From Aestuariivivens insulae (GTDB lineage Bacteria > Bacteroidota > Bacteroidia > Flavobacteriales > Flavobacteriaceae), in the NCBI RefSeq assembly GCF_022662195.1, contig NZ_JAKMCS010000019.1, forward strand, positions 1 to 56,826: a stretch of DNA of 56,826 nucleotides, written 5' to 3'. The position numbers and the translations under genes are program-made. This document shows positions 36,199-53,227 of the stretch, piece after piece; within the stretch, counting starts at the first letter, position 1; every line of letters starts with the position of its first letter. The notes under the pieces were generated by a model. That model was not told the origin of the DNA and did no database searches. It worked only from the letters and a program-made list of their open reading frames with translations.

Positions 36199-38613
36199 AT
36201 GGACTTAATTCCCGATTTAAAAAGCAGCATAACTTTCGATGATTTCAAAACTGAAGTTTTAAACGATTATGCTATTGCTGTACGAAGTCGTGAATGTAGT
36301 TTATTGGGACGCCGTGAAGTATTAACGGGTAAAGCTAAATTTGGCATTTTTGGCGACGGTAAAGAACTCCCTCAACTGGCTATGGCCAAAGCTTTTGCTA
36401 AGGGCGATTGGCGATCGGGGTACTACAGGGACCAGACTTTTATGATGGCCATTGGTAAATTTAATGTTGAGCATTTTTTTGCCGGATTATATGCCAATAC
36501 CGATATAAACCTGGAACCCATGTCGGCAGGACGCCAAATGGGCGGGCATTTTGTAACCCATAGCCTAGATGATGATGGTAATTGGAACGATTTAACAAAA
36601 CAATATAACTCTAGTGCAGACATCTCTCCTACTGCTGGGCAAATGCCACGGCTATTGGGTTTGGCACAAGCTTCAAAAATCTACAAAAAATTAGAGGGAT
36701 TCGATGCCAGTAAATTTTCAAATAACGGTAACGAAGTCGCTTGGGGAACTATTGGCAACGCCAGTACAAGCGAAGGACTATTTTTTGAGACCATAAACGC
36801 TGCTGGTGTACTACAAGTCCCTATGATTATTAGTGTTTGGGATGACGATTACGGTATTTCGGTTCCAGCTAAATACCAAACTACAAAAGAAAATATTTCT
36901 GAAGTCCTTAAAGGCTTTCAGCGCGATGAAAACCATAAAGGCTATGAAATTCTACGTGTTAAGGGCTGGGATTACCCAAACCTTATAGAGACCTATCAAG
37001 AAGCCGCTAACATAGCAAGAAAAGAACACGTTCCGGTAATTATCCATGTACAGGAATTAACCCAACCCCAAGGGCATTCTACTTCGGGATCTCACGAACG
37101 TTATAAAAGCAAAGAACGACTAGATTGGGAAGTAGTACACGATTGCAATACCAAAATGCGGGAATGGATTATTGAAAGTGACATAGCCACAAACGAGGCC
37201 CTTCTTGATTTAGAACGTGCTATAAAAAAAGAAGTCAGGGAAATTAAAGCCAAAACCTGGAATGTCTTCCTTGACCCTATAAAAAAAGACCAAAAAGAAT
37301 TAATCACCCTTTTAAAAAGTTTAGTAGGTGTTAGTGCCAATGGCGTATTCATTTCCAAGCTTATGGAAGATTTGGAAAAAATTCATGAACCTACCCGAAA
37401 AGATGTGATGTCCACATCGAGAAAAGCTTTGCGTTTTACACTGGGCGAAACTTCAAACGAAAAAAACAATCTGGCCAATTGGATTGATCGCGTTATGGCC
37501 GAAACACAACCAAAGTTTAGTTCTCACTTATATTCTGAGACCGACTCCTCGGCTATTTTAGTCAAAGAAGTAAAACCTACATATAGTGATGACGAAGCAA
37601 ATAATGTAGATGGCAGAATTATTATAAGAGATAATTTTGATGCCATTTTTAAAAACCATCCAGAGGCCTTAATATTTGGTGAGGACACAGGTAATATTGG
37701 CGATGTAAACCAAGGCCTAGAAGGATTACAGGACAAGTATGGCGAACTTCGTATTGCAGATACCGGTATTCGAGAAGCAACTATAGTAGGACAAGGCATA
37801 GGTCTGGCACTTAGAGGCCTACGCCCTATTGCCGAAATACAGTACTTAGACTATCTATTATACGCCATTCAAATTATTAGTGACGATTTAGCAACAACGC
37901 AATATCGCACTAAAGGCATGCAAAAAGCCCCTTTAATAGTGCGTACCAGAGGTCATAGACTTGAAGGCATTTGGCATTCGGGATCTCCTATGGGAGGAAT
38001 TTTAAATTTAATTCGTGGCGTATTTGTTCTAGTACCTCGAAACATGACCAAAGCGGCCGGTTTCTATAATACACTGCTCGAGGGCGACAATCCAGCATTA
38101 GTTATAGAGTGCTTAAATGGTTATCGCTTAAAAGAGCGCATGCCTAATAACCTACCAGAAGTAAGGACCCCAATAGGCGTGGTTGAAACCGTCAAGGAAG
38201 GCAAGGACATAACTTTAGTTTCCTATGGTTCTACACTGCGTATTGTTATGGAAACAGCCAAAGACCTGTTAGGAGTTGGTATTGATGCCGAAGTAATCGA
38301 TGTTCAATCGCTTTTACCGTTCGATTTAAATCATGATATCGTTAAAAGTGTGGCCAAGACCAACCGCTTAATGATTATAGATGAAGATGTGCCAGGTGGT
38401 GCTTCTGCATATATTCTAGATGAAATTCTTAACGTTCAAAAAGCATTTCAATATTTAGACAGCGAACCCAAGACCCTAACGGCAAAAGCCCATAGACCAG
38501 CCTACGGCAACGATGGCGATTATTTTTCCAAACCATCGGCCGAAGATATTTTTGAAGCTGTTTATGAAGTCATGCACGAAGCCAATCCGTCCAATTTTCC
38601 TAAGTTGAGATAA
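36199..38613 (+). CDS. Fused 2-oxo acid dehydrogenase E1 alpha/beta (branched-chain type)
   Basis: In this 804-residue protein the first half is E1 alpha (TPP-binding 'GTIGNASTSEGLFFETINAA', 'ELTQPQGHSTSGSHERYKS'). The second half, from about residue 475, is E1 beta ('ALIFGEDTGNIGDVNQGLEG', 'ADTGIREATIVGQGIGLALRG', 'FDLNHDIVKSV'). It decarboxylates a branched-chain or related 2-oxo acid with thiamine diphosphate and passes the acyl group to an E2. No E2 or E3 gene lies in the window. The alpha/beta fusion is known in Bacteroidota. The microprotein-like element begins 22 bp after its stop codon. Confidence 0.9.
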   Translation: MDLIPDLKSSITFDDFKTEVLNDYAIAVRSRECSLLGRREVLTGKAKFGIFGDGKELPQLAMAKAFAKGDWRSGYYRDQTFMMAIGKFNVEHFFAGLYANTDINLEPMSAGRQMGGHFVTHSLDDDGNWNDLTKQYNSSADISPTAGQMPRLLGLAQASKIYKKLEGFDASKFSNNGNEVAWGTIGNASTSEGLFFETINAAGVLQVPMIISVWDDDYGISVPAKYQTTKENISEVLKGFQRDENHKGYEILRVKGWDYPNLIETYQEAANIARKEHVPVIIHVQELTQPQGHSTSGSHERYKSKERLDWEVVHDCNTKMREWIIESDIATNEALLDLERAIKKEVREIKAKTWNVFLDPIKKDQKELITLLKSLVGVSANGVFISKLMEDLEKIHEPTRKDVMSTSRKALRFTLGETSNEKNNLANWIDRVMAETQPKFSSHLYSETDSSAILVKEVKPTYSDDEANNVDGRIIIRDNFDAIFKNHPEALIFGEDTGNIGDVNQGLEGLQDKYGELRIADTGIREATIVGQGIGLALRGLRPIAEIQYLDYLLYAIQIISDDLATTQYRTKGMQKAPLIVRTRGHRLEGIWHSGSPMGGILNLIRGVFVLVPRNMTKAAGFYNTLLEGDNPALVIECLNGYRLKERMPNNLPEVRTPIGVVETVKEGKDITLVSYGSTLRIVMETAKDLLGVGIDAEVIDVQSLLPFDLNHDIVKSVAKTNRLMIIDEDVPGGASAYILDEILNVQKAFQYLDSEPKTLTAKAHRPAYGNDGDYFSKPSAEDIFEAVYEVMHEANPSNFPKLR

Positions 38614-38634: not shown

Positions 38635-38729
38635 TCTTTGGGCAAATGGCAAGCCACCGCGCTTTACGCTATAGTTTTTTAAAATCTTTGGAATTTTAAA
38701 AAAGCTGCCGCTCCTATCGCTTTTGCGGG
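38635..38729 (+). repeat. Dispersed intergenic element, copy A
   Basis: About 95 bp that recur in inverted orientation at 46204-46299 with roughly 8 differences. The core is an A/T palindrome (TTTTTTAAAAT ... ATTTTAAAAAA) between 'GGCAAGCCACCGCGC' and 'GCTGCCGCTCC...GCGGG'. It lies immediately after the E1 gene in the same orientation. Confidence 0.9.
38646..38699 (+). pseudogene. Frameshifted copy of a small basic/hydrophobic ORF
   Basis: ATG at 38646 reads MASHRALRYSFLKSL and then stops after two codons. Removing one G at the TTGG near 38691 restores the frame of the 46156-46287 ORF (NFKKAAAPIAFAG...). Either this is a decayed relative of that microprotein or both are non-coding copies of a repeat. 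Confidence 0.35.
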
Positions 38730-38753
38730 ATTTTGTCCATTAATTTATCTCCA

Positions 38754-38851
38754 TCCAACTTCCAACTTCCAACTTCCAACTTCCAACCTCTAACTTCCAA
38801 CCTCTAACCTCTAACCTCTAACCTCTAACCTCTAACCTCTAACTTCTAATC
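38754..38851. repeat. Heptanucleotide tandem array (14 units, mixed types)
   Basis: Fourteen 7-bp units alternating TCCAACT and TCTAACC (minus strand AGTTGGA, GGTTAGA), same AGYTRGA class as the arrays at 10538 and 22349. With the dispersed element it fills the 311-bp gap between the E1 gene and the next gene; no other gene is seen there. Confidence 0.97.
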
Positions 38852-43503: not shown

Positions 43504-45930
43504 ATGAAAATTTCTTATAACTGGCTGAAGCAATTTATCAAAACCGATTGGGCTCCAGAACAAATAAGTGAACTATTAACCGATTTAGGGCTTGAAGTAG
43601 AAGGTGTTGAGGACTATCAATCGGTAAAAGGTGGATTACAGGGTGTTGTTATTGGCGAAGTGCTTACCTGTGAAAAACATCCCAATGCCGATAAATTAAA
43701 AGTTACTACGGTTGATATTGGAGGTGATGAACCGCTACAGATTGTTTGCGGGGCTCCCAATGTTGCTAAAGGGCAAAAAGTACCAGTTGCAACCATTGGC
43801 TCCACGTTATACACCGAAGAAGGTGAGTCATGGATCATTAAGAAAGGTAAGATTAGAGGAGAAGCAAGCCATGGTATGATTTGTGCCGAAGACGAATTGG
43901 GCTTGGGTAAATCGCACGATGGTATTATGGTACTTGATTCCAATCTTAAAATAGGAACACCTGCGGCCGACGTGTTTAAAATTGAAAATGATAGCGTCTT
44001 CGAAATAGGCCTAACGCCCAATCGTGCAGATGCCATGAGTCATTTTGGTGTTGCCCGTGACCTTAAAGCCGGTTTTCTTCAAAAAGACATCAATTTAGAA
44101 CTTATTACGCCATCGGTAAGTGCTTTTCATACCGACAACCGTACACTTAAAATTGATGTCGATGTTATCAATAAAGATTTAGCTCCCCGTTACTGTGGAG
44201 TTACCATTTCTGGACTAAAAGTTGGAGATTCCCCAGAATGGTTGCAACATCGTTTAAAGGCTATAGGCTTGGCACCCATAAATAATGTCGTAGATGCCAC
44301 AAATTACGTTTTGCATGAGTTGGGACAGCCGCTTCATGCCTTTGATGCCGTTAAGATAGCTGGCAATAAAATTGAAGTTAAAACTTTAGAACGTGGTACC
44401 AAGTTTACAACCTTGGATGGTGTGGAGCGTGAGTTACATGGGGACGATCTTATGATTTGTGACGCCCAAAAACCCATTTGTATTGCTGGAGTATTTGGTG
44501 GGATTGATTCTGGCGTAACCGAAAGTACAACAAGCATATTTTTAGAAAGTGCTTATTTTAATCCTGTAAGCATTCGTAAATCGGCAAAACGCCACGGGTT
44601 GAACACAGACGCTTCCTTTAGGTTTGAGCGTGGTATTGACCCTAATATCACTGAATATGCATTAAAACGAGCAACGCTTTTAATACAGGAAATAGCTGGT
44701 GGTGAAGTTACAAGCGACGTTATAGACATCTATCCTAAAAAAATTAAGGACTTTGAAATACGTCTAAGCTTCGAAAATGCACAAAAGCTTATTGGCGAAG
44801 AAATCCCTAAGGAAATTATTAAACGTATACTTACATCATTAGAGATAAAGGTTAATAATGTAACCGAAGCTGGCTTGGGACTTACTGTACCCGCTTATAG
44901 AAATGACGTACAACGCGAAGCCGATGTTATTGAGGAAATTTTACGGGTGTATGGCTATAATAACATTAAAACAACAACAAAGCTAAACGCCTCAGTTTCC
45001 AACACATCTCGCTTTGAAGACCATAAAATACAAGATGTTATTGGTAATTTGTTAGCTGCCCAAGGTTTTTTTGAAACACTCTCTAATTCCTTAACCACAC
45101 CCAATTATGTGGCTTTAAGTGATCAATTAGATGAAGCACATAACGTTACCATGTTAAATCCACTAAGTAATGATTTATCGGTACTTAGACAATCGCTATT
45201 GTTTTCTGGCTTAGAGGCTATTTCGTATAACATTAACAGAAAACGCCAGGATTTAAAGCTATTCGAATTTGGAAAGACCTATCATGACATTGATGGTGAA
45301 AGAAAGGAATTTAAGCACCTAAGCCTATTGGTTACCGGTAGCAGAAATCCCGAAAGCTGGCATAGCGCTAATGGGAAAAGTGATTTCTTCTTTTTAAAAG
45401 GCATTGTAGCTACTACTTTGGAACGTTTGGGTATATCAAGATATGCCGAAGCGCCTATTGCCAATGATTTATTTGGGGAAGGTTTGTCGATCTCCCAAGG
45501 TAAAACCAAGTTAGTCGACTTTGGATTAGTAAAAAAATCTGTTTTAAAGGCTTTTGATATTTCACAGGAAGTGGTTTATGCCGATTTTAATTGGGATGCC
45601 ATTCTAGAATTGGTGAAACGTAATAAAATTACATTTAAGCCCATTCCAAAATACCCAATGGTAAGACGTGACTTTGCTTTGCTATTAGATGATAATGTTT
45701 CTTTTGAAGACATCCATAAGATTGCTAAACAAAGTGAAAGACAATTGCTAAAGGAGGTAAGCCTTTTTGATGTTTACCAAGGCAAAAACCTGCCTAAAGG
45801 CAAAAAGAGCTATGCGGTGAGCTTTACATTACAGGATGAGAACAAAACGCTCACCGATAAGCAAATTGACAAAATCATGAGTAAGCTTCAAGCTAATTTT
45901 GAAAAACAGCTTGGGGCAGAATTGCGATAG
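43504..45930 (+). CDS. pheT: Phenylalanyl-tRNA synthetase beta subunit
   Basis: The 808-residue protein has the full PheT layout: tRNA-binding EMAP-like domain ('VIGEVLTCEKHPNADKLKVT' at about 45), the B3/B4 editing region ('RYCGVTISGLKVGDSPEWLQ', then 'NVVDATNYVLHELGQPLHAF'), B5 ('VPAYRNDVQREADVIEEILR'), and a C-terminal FDX-ACB domain ('KYPMVRRDFALLLDDNVSFE'). It forms the alpha2beta2 enzyme with PheS, which is not in the window, so the subunits are not adjacent here. Confidence 0.97.
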   Translation: MKISYNWLKQFIKTDWAPEQISELLTDLGLEVEGVEDYQSVKGGLQGVVIGEVLTCEKHPNADKLKVTTVDIGGDEPLQIVCGAPNVAKGQKVPVATIGSTLYTEEGESWIIKKGKIRGEASHGMICAEDELGLGKSHDGIMVLDSNLKIGTPAADVFKIENDSVFEIGLTPNRADAMSHFGVARDLKAGFLQKDINLELITPSVSAFHTDNRTLKIDVDVINKDLAPRYCGVTISGLKVGDSPEWLQHRLKAIGLAPINNVVDATNYVLHELGQPLHAFDAVKIAGNKIEVKTLERGTKFTTLDGVERELHGDDLMICDAQKPICIAGVFGGIDSGVTESTTSIFLESAYFNPVSIRKSAKRHGLNTDASFRFERGIDPNITEYALKRATLLIQEIAGGEVTSDVIDIYPKKIKDFEIRLSFENAQKLIGEEIPKEIIKRILTSLEIKVNNVTEAGLGLTVPAYRNDVQREADVIEEILRVYGYNNIKTTTKLNASVSNTSRFEDHKIQDVIGNLLAAQGFFETLSNSLTTPNYVALSDQLDEAHNVTMLNPLSNDLSVLRQSLLFSGLEAISYNINRKRQDLKLFEFGKTYHDIDGERKEFKHLSLLVTGSRNPESWHSANGKSDFFFLKGIVATTLERLGISRYAEAPIANDLFGEGLSISQGKTKLVDFGLVKKSVLKAFDISQEVVYADFNWDAILELVKRNKITFKPIPKYPMVRRDFALLLDDNVSFEDIHKIAKQSERQLLKEVSLFDVYQGKNLPKGKKSYAVSFTLQDENKTLTDKQIDKIMSKLQANFEKQLGAELR

Positions 45931-46072: not shown

Positions 46073-46155
46073 TCCATGAACAGAACTCGTTCCCCTCGAA
46101 ATGAAGGAAAGGTGGCTTTAAACTCGTTTAAGAATTTAAAGTTAGAAGGGTATTA

Positions 46156-46287
46156 TTAAAAAAAGTACAAGGCTTTTATCATATACTGAACTAACAAATA
46201 AAGCCCCGCAAAAGTGATAGCAGCGGCAGCTTTTTTAAAATTCAAAAATTTTAAAAAACTATAGCGGATAGCACGGTGGCTTGCCAT
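46156..46287 (-). CDS. Putative 43-residue basic/hydrophobic microprotein
   Basis: ATG at 46287 opens an intact 43-codon frame ending TAA at 46156. The first 19 residues are basic (MASHRAIRYSFLKFLNFKK) and the last 24 are a single hydrophobic segment, the layout of a tail-anchored or small inner-membrane peptide. It starts 51 nt after the cyclase gene stop, on the same strand. Its first 80 bp form copy B of a dispersed element whose copy A at 38646 is frameshifted. No family recognised. The weak point is that nucleotide differences between copies do not clearly favour silent sites, so it may be a non-coding repeat. Confidence 0.35.
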   Translation of the reverse strand: MASHRAIRYSFLKFLNFKKAAAAITFAGLYLLVQYMIKALYFF

Positions 46288-46299
46288 TTGCCCTAAAGA
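46204..46299 (-). repeat. Dispersed intergenic element, copy B (inverted relative to copy A)
   Basis: About 95 bp, roughly 91 percent identical by hand alignment to 38635-38729 in inverted orientation. Its core palindrome is perfect (TTTTTTAAAATT CAAA AATTTTAAAAAA). It lies in the 408-bp gap between the converging pheT and cyclase genes, just downstream of the cyclase stop. Confidence 0.9.
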
Positions 46300-46338: not shown

Positions 46339-47166
46339 TCATTGGTTAACAAGTGCTATAATCCTTAAAGGGCCGCCGCTTCCTCCCTTAATTTTCATAG
46401 GTAAGGCTACGATTGTAAAATTTTTGGAGGGTAACTGGTCTAAATGAGTCAGGTTTTCAAAAGCTGGAATATTTTTTCCAAGAAGGATAACGTGGCTTTT
46501 AAAGTCGGTAGACTGCCCATAATCTATACTAGGTGTATCAATACCTATGGCATGAATTTTTCTGTTTTCAACAAGCCAAGTGGCGGCTTCTGGAGCTAAG
46601 CCAGGAAAGTGTAAATCTTTTACTGCCTCTGGGCCACGCATTTCCGTTCCTAAATAGTTTAACTTATTGGGATAATATTTAGAATATCCTGTTTGCAATA
46701 GCACTATGCTTCCTTCTGGGATTTGTGTTTTTTCGGTCCTTTCCCAATTCAAAAAATCATCTGTCGTTATAAGATATTCTGGATTGTTTAGTGCCTTATG
46801 GGACACATCTATTTTAATAGCACTACCAATTAAGTGTTCTAAAGGTATTTCATCTACCGTTTGACCTTCTTTAGCAAAATGAATTGGTGCATCTATATGG
46901 GTGCCTCCATGTTCTGCCGTTGAAAAATTATTAGCCGCATAAAAAAAGCCCTGCTCGGTCTCGCCATGGGCCACAGTATCCAATTCAAACTCCTTTGCCG
47001 TTACCCAATAAATGGTTTCATCTGAAAAATCGTGGGTTAAATCAATAATTTCAGCATTAGCCAAAAGCCCTTTTTCAGACGGGTAACTTTCCTTTTTATT
47101 TTGAACATTTTCCTTGCAAGCCATTATCAAAACGCCAAGAAACAATATGTAAATTCTTTTATCCAT
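46339..47166 (-). CDS. Cyclase/kynurenine formamidase-family lipoprotein
   Basis: The 275-residue protein has a lipobox ('FLGVLIMACKE', Cys 17), so it is envelope-anchored. The core carries the cyclase-family metal motif HxGTHxDxPxHF as 'HGGTHIDAPIHF' (about residue 88), plus 'LLQTGYSKYY' and 'IGIDTPSIDYGQS'. Family members include kynurenine formamidases and various metal-dependent hydrolases. An extracytoplasmic location makes kynurenine formamidase in tryptophan breakdown less likely; the substrate is unknown. Confidence 0.85.
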   Translation of the reverse strand: MDKRIYILFLGVLIMACKENVQNKKESYPSEKGLLANAEIIDLTHDFSDETIYWVTAKEFELDTVAHGETEQGFFYAANNFSTAEHGGTHIDAPIHFAKEGQTVDEIPLEHLIGSAIKIDVSHKALNNPEYLITTDDFLNWERTEKTQIPEGSIVLLQTGYSKYYPNKLNYLGTEMRGPEAVKDLHFPGLAPEAATWLVENRKIHAIGIDTPSIDYGQSTDFKSHVILLGKNIPAFENLTHLDQLPSKNFTIVALPMKIKGGSGGPLRIIALVNQ

Positions 47167-52995: not shown

Positions 52996-53098
52996 AAATA
53001 AAAATGAATAATTAAAAATGTAAAATTAACAATGAATCTGATTAAATAAGATTAAAACCAAAAAAGATTAAAAAAGGACAGAATAGGGCATAAAAAAA

Positions 53099-53192
53099 GG
53101 CAAGCTACCTACATCACACCGCTACGACCATATACCTTTGCTGCGTTCCCGCCCTGGAGGATTCTACAGGAGCTGGTTGTGTAGGACTTGCC
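53099..53192 (-). ncRNA. ffs: Signal recognition particle RNA (4.5S)
   Basis: On the minus strand about 94 nt fold into one long hairpin: the 5' end GGCAAGTCCTACA pairs with the 3' end TGTAGGTAGCTTGCC. The apical region CCAGGGCGGGAACGCAGC carries the GGAA tetraloop and the asymmetric loop that bind Ffh, in the form usual for Bacteroidota. A T-run (seven T) follows the 3' end, and a consensus promoter lies just upstream, fixing the orientation. Confidence 0.93.
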
Positions 53193-53197
53193 AGGTG

Positions 53198-53227
53198 CAA
53201 AGATACAACCTTTTAAAATTTTCACAA
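53198..53227 (-). promoter_or_regulatory. Promoter TTG-N19-TATCTTTG of ffs
   Basis: On the minus strand TTG (53225-53227) and TATCTTTG (53198-53205) are 19 nt apart, an exact match to the Bacteroidota consensus; the RNA 5' end would lie about 6 nt downstream. Confidence 0.85.

Follow-up and report, generated by a model that had tools for sequence, protein, structure and literature searches.

The window analysed here, a stretch of 56,826 nt from Aestuariivivens insulae (contig NZ_JAKMCS010000019.1), contains two copies, A and B, of a palindromic element in opposite orientations. A sequence-only reading of the window had described an inverted pair of 95-bp repeats, and a local BLAST comparison recovered the same pair: 46156-46299 matches 38635-38729 of the opposite strand at 92% over 95 bp (E 3e-28). 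That reading also placed each copy shortly after the stop codon of an unrelated gene and in the direction of that gene, which is true of both copies in the orientation that it used. This orientation, referred to below as the reader orientation, is the opposite of the Rfam strand and corresponds to the minus strand at copy B. The A/T palindrome that it saw at the core is present as well. Its statement that the element occurs twice holds within the window only, since at least 31 copies of this subtype are present in the genome as a whole. The features of the two loci are the following.

36199-38613, plus strand: E1-dehydrogenase-like gene (E1_dh and transketolase domains), with its stop codon 21 bp ahead of copy A
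38640-38726, minus strand (Rfam sense): copy A from end to end in the alignment of 18 short copies (row L014), with an exact end motif at 38641-38658
38651-38735, minus strand: sub-threshold Flavo-1 match of copy A in the Rfam search (38.1 bits, E 2e-5)
43504-45930, plus strand: pheT, convergent with copy B, which served to locate orthologous sites
46198-46282, plus strand: Flavo-1 match (RF01705) of copy B in the Rfam 15 search, 46.5 bits (gathering score 42)
46208-46293, plus strand (Rfam sense): the whole of copy B, from GCAAAA to TTTGCCC, in the alignment of 18 short copies, with an exact end motif at 46275-46292
46339-47166, minus strand: putative cyclase gene (cyclase-like), with its stop codon 39 bp from the end of copy B

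Other repeats adjoin the element. A second dispersed repeat, located at about 46114-46205 of the window, is made up of a TTTAAA-type palindrome and, after it, ...ACTGAACTAACAA. In copies L001-L004 and L007 this repeat directly adjoins the element at its 5' end, and some insertions are therefore composite. A tandem array of TCCAACCTCTAACC-type units is found beside copy A (38754-38849), and similar strings flank other host copies. Elsewhere in the window, about five near-identical 237-bp tandem units occupy 951-2101, and a small SRP RNA (RF04183, 105.6 bits) is located at 53094-53200 on the minus strand.

Identity, copy number and coding potential

The RF01705 search identified the element as a member of the Flavo-1 superfamily. 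Copy B exceeds the gathering score of 42 bits and copy A falls below it, and the paired arm with internal mismatches that marks Flavo-1 is present. In the host genome (4.23 Mb, 33 contigs), at least 34 Flavo-1 matches were found at E<=1, at least 24 of them above the cut-off. For the window subtype we compiled at least 31 copies, and for the classic type at least 14. Three weak host matches (C27:1519, C33:76735 and C32:76035) were left out of this compilation. The copy numbers are lower bounds because the first searches scored only part of the candidates (40 of 87 and 150 of 751, with at most 36 per relative genome and at most 15 per genome of the phylum). Flavo-1 is sporadic in Bacteroidota, with matches in at least 56 of 119 relatives and, at E<=1e-5, in at least 40 of 296 genomes of the phylum.

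An 18-mer at the 3' end, GGTGGCTTGCCATTTGCC, occurs exactly 29 times in the host genome, on both strands alike and always inside the compiled copies. The remaining two copies (L066 and L067) carry an altered end motif, and one further match with two mismatches was found at C28:9196. None of the 29 exact end motifs in the host genome belongs to an autonomous partner sharing the same 3' end. The inner part of the copies is much less uniform. Among the at least 31 host copies, 18 contain a short A/T hairpin, nine have a loop longer by about 70 nt, and three contain an unrelated G+C-rich hairpin; L064 consists of the 3' end alone. In locus L063, a TPP riboswitch was observed at 1751-1847, no more than about 100 bp away from the copy there.

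The subtype at first appeared restricted to the host species, an idea that was overturned by a survey of 397 Flavobacteriaceae genomes, of which 20, including the host, contain the end motif at no more than one mismatch; it is single in 15 of the other 19. We examined 22 foreign loci from 16 of these 19 genomes. They were selected by the end motif and not by the 5' arm, and the exactness of the motif among them is therefore partly a result of selection. These copies from other genera have the same ends with different inner stems, among them the core of classic Flavo-1, and L260, L262, L265 and L269 are hybrids that combine window-type ends with that core. Rfam detects Flavo-1 in 19 of 20 foreign loci (10 over the cut-off and 9 below it; none in L271), which ties the window subtype to Flavo-1.

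The 43-residue frame (MASHRAIRYS...) that had been proposed to encode a membrane microprotein is indeed open in copy B and broken in copy A, but it is not kept across the copies. In a survey that caught 26 of the 30 copies given to the script, from a genome with at least 31, the homologous frame was open in 10 copies and stopped in 16, and in two of the 10 open copies (L009 and L012) it slips into another frame half-way. The element lengths of 85-87 and 139-200 nt represent all three codon phases, and a Pfam search with the 43-residue product matched no family. A small protein family with a conserved frame was thus rejected. The weak similarity that had been seen past the repeat in the restored frame fits the second repeat adjacent to some copies (e.g., L001-L004 and L007) and not a coding extension. 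We conclude that the repeated element is non-coding, an interspersed palindromic repeat of the Flavo-1 superfamily.

Base pairing and architecture

The alignment of 18 short copies extends the pairing beyond the core arm. At copy B the paired parts are the following.

46208-46212, plus strand: 5' side of the outer stem, GCAAA, pairing with 46287-46291 and invariant in 18 of 18 short copies
46214-46216, plus strand: GTG triplet, pairing with CAC at 46272-46274; the copies show four covarying states here, of which this is one
46228-46260, plus strand: inner A/T hairpin, the place of which is taken by unrelated hairpins in other copies
46277-46286, plus strand: side mini-hairpin TGG-CTTG-CCA, invariant in the alignment of 18 short copies
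46287-46291, plus strand: 3' side of the outer stem, TTTGC, from the alignment of 18 short copies

The covarying triplet lies just inside the 5' end, before AT[A/T]G, and its partner follows [T/A]AG near the 3' end. We parsed 30 host copies, from which L063, L065 and L066, lacking the 3' arm, were left out (L064 was not included). In the resulting 27 copies the triplet pairing is exact throughout, as GCG/CGC in 15, GTG/CAC in seven, ACG/CGT in three and GCA/TGC in two. The adjoining A-T/T-A pair is kept in 26 of the 27, the exception being copy A. Neither value was matched in any of 20,000 permutations. The same was seen in classic Flavo-1, where 36 of 43 loci could be parsed: all 36 triplets pair exactly, in six states, and the A/T pair is kept in 34. 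Over the whole alignment of 18 short copies, 98.3% of the cells are paired; shuffles give 94.9%, and sliding the partners against each other gives 41-52%. Both sides have changed at six pairs against a shuffle mean of 2.9; further pair types (9 versus 8.6 in shuffles) are not more numerous. The mismatches within the arm are conserved and never mended to perfect pairing, and simple copying of one arm from the other therefore fails as an explanation. The pairing of the arm is thus maintained through compensatory changes, which was the test that the sequence-only reading had named for its other option, a hairpin repeat, and that option is supported.

Because the outer stem and the side hairpin are invariant in the 18 copies, covariation within those copies provides no proof of them. 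Other copies are more informative. In L067 the side hairpin is swapped for another self-complementary sequence. Type-2 Flavo-1 has equivalents of both parts, an outer stem GCGTTA ... TAACGC enclosing a variable side hairpin. This outer stem covaries and was found in 11 of the 18 type-2 copies, a number that none of 20,000 permutations equalled (mean 4.3); the parse covered 35 of the 43 classic loci, with L038 mis-parsed. The outer stem, the side mini-hairpin and the long mismatched arm, which bears the replaceable inner stem at its tip, are together consistent with a three-way junction. Free-energy folding was no better than for shuffles (z from +0.4 to -1.6 in ten folds of four copies), and the whole junction was seen in only one of the ten folds, that of the Rfam strand of copy B as DNA.

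Among 237 parsed triplet pairs (81 host, 108 classic and 48 foreign, the last from 16 of the 22 loci), a single G.T was found, and all the others are Watson-Crick pairs. This seems few for an RNA helix, and it may hint at selection on pairing in folded DNA.

Gain in the lineage and position relative to genes

A search with a 102-bp query of the element found no match in 39 relatives, including three congeners, at E<=1e-6. Among the matches listed, Flavo-1 has at least 28 in the host versus 1, 0 and 4, of other subtypes, in the three congeners. We then examined the orthologous intergenic stretches of five sites (A, B, L003, L012 and L023) in these congeners by an Rfam search at E<=1 and by motif distance, and the element was found in none of the 15. 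At site B in G001, conservation was seen on the pheT side only. The absence from 15 of 15 congener stretches indicates that the copies were gained in the host lineage. The long matches to the congeners, at about 63-84% DNA identity, are too diverged to place insertion points or duplications precisely, and a comparison of the flanks by eye established no target-site duplication.

At site A, more distant relatives have 15-53 bp in three loci (L153, L169 and L171), and two Algibacter loci (L150 and L165) contain, as judged by eye, another palindromic stretch at this place. The stretch of L165 is a weak Flavo-1 match (29.5 bits), and that of L150 gives none at E<=0.1. The place behind the site-A gene may therefore have been used more than once. 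Presence followed by loss may be an alternative to gain at this site.

The position behind a gene that had been noted for the two window copies generalises, and it proved the most informative part of the sequence-only reading. In the reader orientation, a stop codon lies within 85 bp upstream of 17 of 31 host window-type copies, 19 of 21 foreign copies, 15 of 24 classic copies of relatives and 6 of 14 host classic copies. The corresponding values in the Rfam orientation are 1 of 31, 8 of 21, 5 of 24 and 6 of 14. These counts cover 21 of the 22 foreign loci (L263 left out) and 24 of the 29 classic loci of relatives, and they take as genes all co-directional open frames with a length of 80 codons or more (60 or more in short loci), although some frames (e.g., those of 82-90 codons in L098 and L099) may not be genes. 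The window subtype is thus strongly oriented relative to genes, whereas the classic type is less so or not at all. In the preferred orientation the GGGC end (reader strand) faces the stop codon of the gene, and the copies with such a gene lie 6-75 bp behind it. In 12 of the 31 host window-type copies, the GGGC end points towards a gene start; eight of these 12 lie between genes called divergent, where the element could not form the 3' end of either adjacent gene. Four of the 45 host copies are overlapped by a putative ORF of 87-284 codons.

Among the foreign copies, one location recurs. The element is found 7-42 bp after dusB in 13 of the 22 foreign loci, which represent 13 of the 16 genomes and 10 genera. 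The identity of DusB was confirmed with TIGR00737 in the two loci tested (329 and 325 bits, cut-off 293). Sorted by eye, the copies at this site have three different inner stems, in five, four and four loci. The host copy L067 lies inverted between a gene with a dusB-like C-terminus and a gene for a permease resembling LolE. Classic Flavo-1 was observed 11-40 bp past the sufD stop codon in five genomes including the host (L032, L088, L089, L092 and L097), between sufD and sufS in L032, the only one of these loci in which gene identities were tested. It was also observed behind a phoH-like gene in three genomes including the host (L031, L099 and L101), with purC following in the host locus L031, where alone the identities were tested. 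The occurrence of the element at the same places across genera suggests host use at the dusB, sufD and phoH-like locations, although the foreign set was picked by its end motif.

Interpretation and relation to known systems

Our best explanation, in which we have about even confidence, is that the element is a REP-like interspersed palindrome that is spread by an enzyme and serves as a structure at the mRNA 3' end when it lies behind a gene. Pairing, gain and position are observed; in addition, we infer a putative enzyme that would recognise the folded single strand through its conserved ends, by which copies would spread. Insertion would take place at T-rich stretches. Copies behind a gene in the reader orientation would then be kept, with the transcript ending in, or being trimmed back to, the folded structure. 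In E. coli, REP hairpins keep 3' exonucleases from degrading intercistronic regions and the 3' ends of mRNAs, and by analogy the element may work like a REP without being one. Several observations count against this explanation. The host classic copies are unbiased (6 versus 6 of 14), 12 of the 31 window-type copies turn the GGGC end to a gene start, 8 of them between divergent genes, and in F. psychrophilum Flavo-1 hits are found on either strand of transcribed regions and often outside them (PMC9723704). The single G.T points to pairing at the level of DNA. Further pair types are no more numerous than in shuffles, the outer stem and the side hairpin do not vary in the 18 short copies, and free folding does not surpass shuffles.

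The positions between divergent genes speak for a selfish non-autonomous hairpin that is moved as single-stranded DNA and has no host function, a reading that we regard as possible, if somewhat unlikely. The bias towards gene ends would then reflect an insertion preference for T-rich stretches behind genes together with purifying selection elsewhere. All five checked sites are empty in the congeners, the host has at least 31 copies of the subtype and none was found in the three congeners, and the ends are conserved around an exchangeable middle. Right past the 3' end, AAA (TTT on the reader strand) was counted by eye in 30 of 31 copies, and the single G.T in 237 triplet pairs also agrees with movement as DNA. 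However, purely selfish spread does not sit well with the dusB-linked copies, which have intact ends in 13 genomes of 10 genera, or with the classic copies found repeatedly, in several genomes, after sufD and phoH-like genes, and no mobilising gene was found.

The Y1 transposase gene of REP systems (RAYT) was considered as a candidate for such a gene. Y1_Tnp is present in 30 of 56 Flavo-1-positive versus 7 of 63 Flavo-1-negative relatives (Fisher p about 9e-7 from a hand tally that ignores kinship). However, of the 20 genomes in which Flavo-1 gave 10 or more hits, 10 lack a Y1_Tnp match at E<=1e-5, and Flavo-1 was not seen within 1.5 kb of Y1_Tnp in any of the 19 loci searched (29 fetched). 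RAYT is therefore not required, and spread driven by it is not supported. In genome G051, with at least 36 Flavo-1 copies (36 of 36 candidates scored matched), Y1_Tnp was not found at E<=1e-5. Y1-like sequence was also observed in two larger frames. In host contig C28, a single open frame (L062:1477-2997) combines a Y1-like N-terminal part (PF01797, 21.6 bits, below the cut-off of 23) with coproporphyrinogen III oxidase (PF01218, 457 bits), and G054 has a Y1-like match in a frame of 511 codons.

E. coli BIMEs bind gyrase or IHF. By analogy, the element might be a binding site for a chromosomal protein, acting as DNA or as a cruciform, which we consider quite improbable. The near-invariant ends and arms, the almost exclusively Watson-Crick changes and the use of both orientations by the host classic copies are in agreement with such a site, but the window subtype is strongly one-sided relative to genes, and at least 28 host matches against 1, 0 and 4 in the congeners, among the matches listed, would be odd for a housekeeping site. 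A transcription terminator serving the upstream gene or convergent gene pairs is suggested by the distances of 6-75 bp past stop codons in copies with a reader-orientation gene, and is very improbable: an intrinsic terminator (a G+C-rich hairpin followed by a T run) was found at neither window copy, the T tract precedes the hairpin on the reader strand instead of following it, and 8 of the 31 copies lie between divergent genes.

Hardly any probability remains for a trans-acting small RNA, the type under which Rfam classifies Flavo-1 ('sRNA'). In favour of this type, sigma-70-like promoter matches number 6 versus 1.6 in shuffles in the 600 bp around copy B, and 2 versus 1.3 around copy A; one of them is the same match inside each copy on the reader strand. 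However, the sigma-70 consensus pattern used differs from the flavobacterial one, and the promoter scan only counts consensus matches. The tens of copies tied to gene ends, with the window subtype on the strand opposite to that of Rfam, argue against this type. In F. psychrophilum, as far as the account in PMC9723704 goes, Flavo-1 hits lie sense or antisense to transcribed regions alike, with many outside them, and gave no clue to function. Finally, a family of 43-residue membrane microproteins is almost certainly wrong, since the frame, open in copy B and in 10 of the 26 copies surveyed, is stopped in the other 16, the lengths fall in three phases, Pfam is silent and base pairing explains the conservation.

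Beyond our best explanation, we offer a broader view of Flavo-1 that is speculative and that we ourselves think unlikely. Instead of a family of RNA genes, Flavo-1 would comprise folded-DNA elements, as a single strand or a cruciform, with invariant ends and a freely exchangeable inner stem; dusB, which encodes a tRNA-modifying enzyme, would be a long-kept home site of one subtype, from which bursts such as the at least 31 copies in the host arise. The copy at dusB may serve dusB itself, for example as an mRNA-end structure recognised by DusB.

Among known systems, the REP elements and BIMEs of enterobacteria and pseudomonads are intergenic palindromes that are often gene-adjacent and uneven in copy number, according to the part of PMC3733652 devoted to them. 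The present element shares these properties, but it measures about 86 bp or more instead of 20-40 bp, ends in GCAAAA and TTTGCC without the GTAG or CGTC tag, and has no linked RAYT gene in the 19 Y1_Tnp loci searched. Bacterial MITEs (ERIC, RUP, NEMIS and others) are described in the corresponding part of PMC3733652 as non-autonomous, dispersed and gene-adjacent with strong hairpins. The element resembles them in all of this and in having been gained where relatives lack it (0 of 15 congener stretches), but its terminal repeats are the 5 bp of GCAAA/TTTGC, accompanied by a side hairpin, instead of 15-30 bp, and no partner transposon with the same end was found. Because the end tag, the length, the terminal repeats and the linked transposase do not agree, we do not claim membership of either class. 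In BOX elements the middle modules are exchangeable, and the middle of the present element is likewise exchangeable.

The closest relative is Flavo-1 itself. The RNA motif RF01705 has a table entry in Weinberg et al. 2010, and since then it has counted as a candidate for a structured RNA with no function assigned (PMC2864571). It is also mentioned where a review of 2022 treats the small RNAs of highest abundance (PMC9029176). The sections drawn on here of PMC2864571, PMC9029176, PMC9723704 and PMC3733652 give no function, outer stems or dusB link for Flavo-1. The core arm, its mismatches and the inner hairpin agree with RF01705, whereas the outer stem and the side hairpin lie beyond the model, many copies score below its gathering score, the inner hairpin is exchangeable, and the position relative to genes suggests the strand opposite to that of Rfam. 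The results thus define the boundaries of the Flavo-1 element, add outer parts that the Rfam model does not contain, indicate the likely strand of one subtype, point to recent gain and show the end of dusB to be a place where the element recurs. Its role becomes directly testable on one intergenic hairpin in a culturable flavobacterium.
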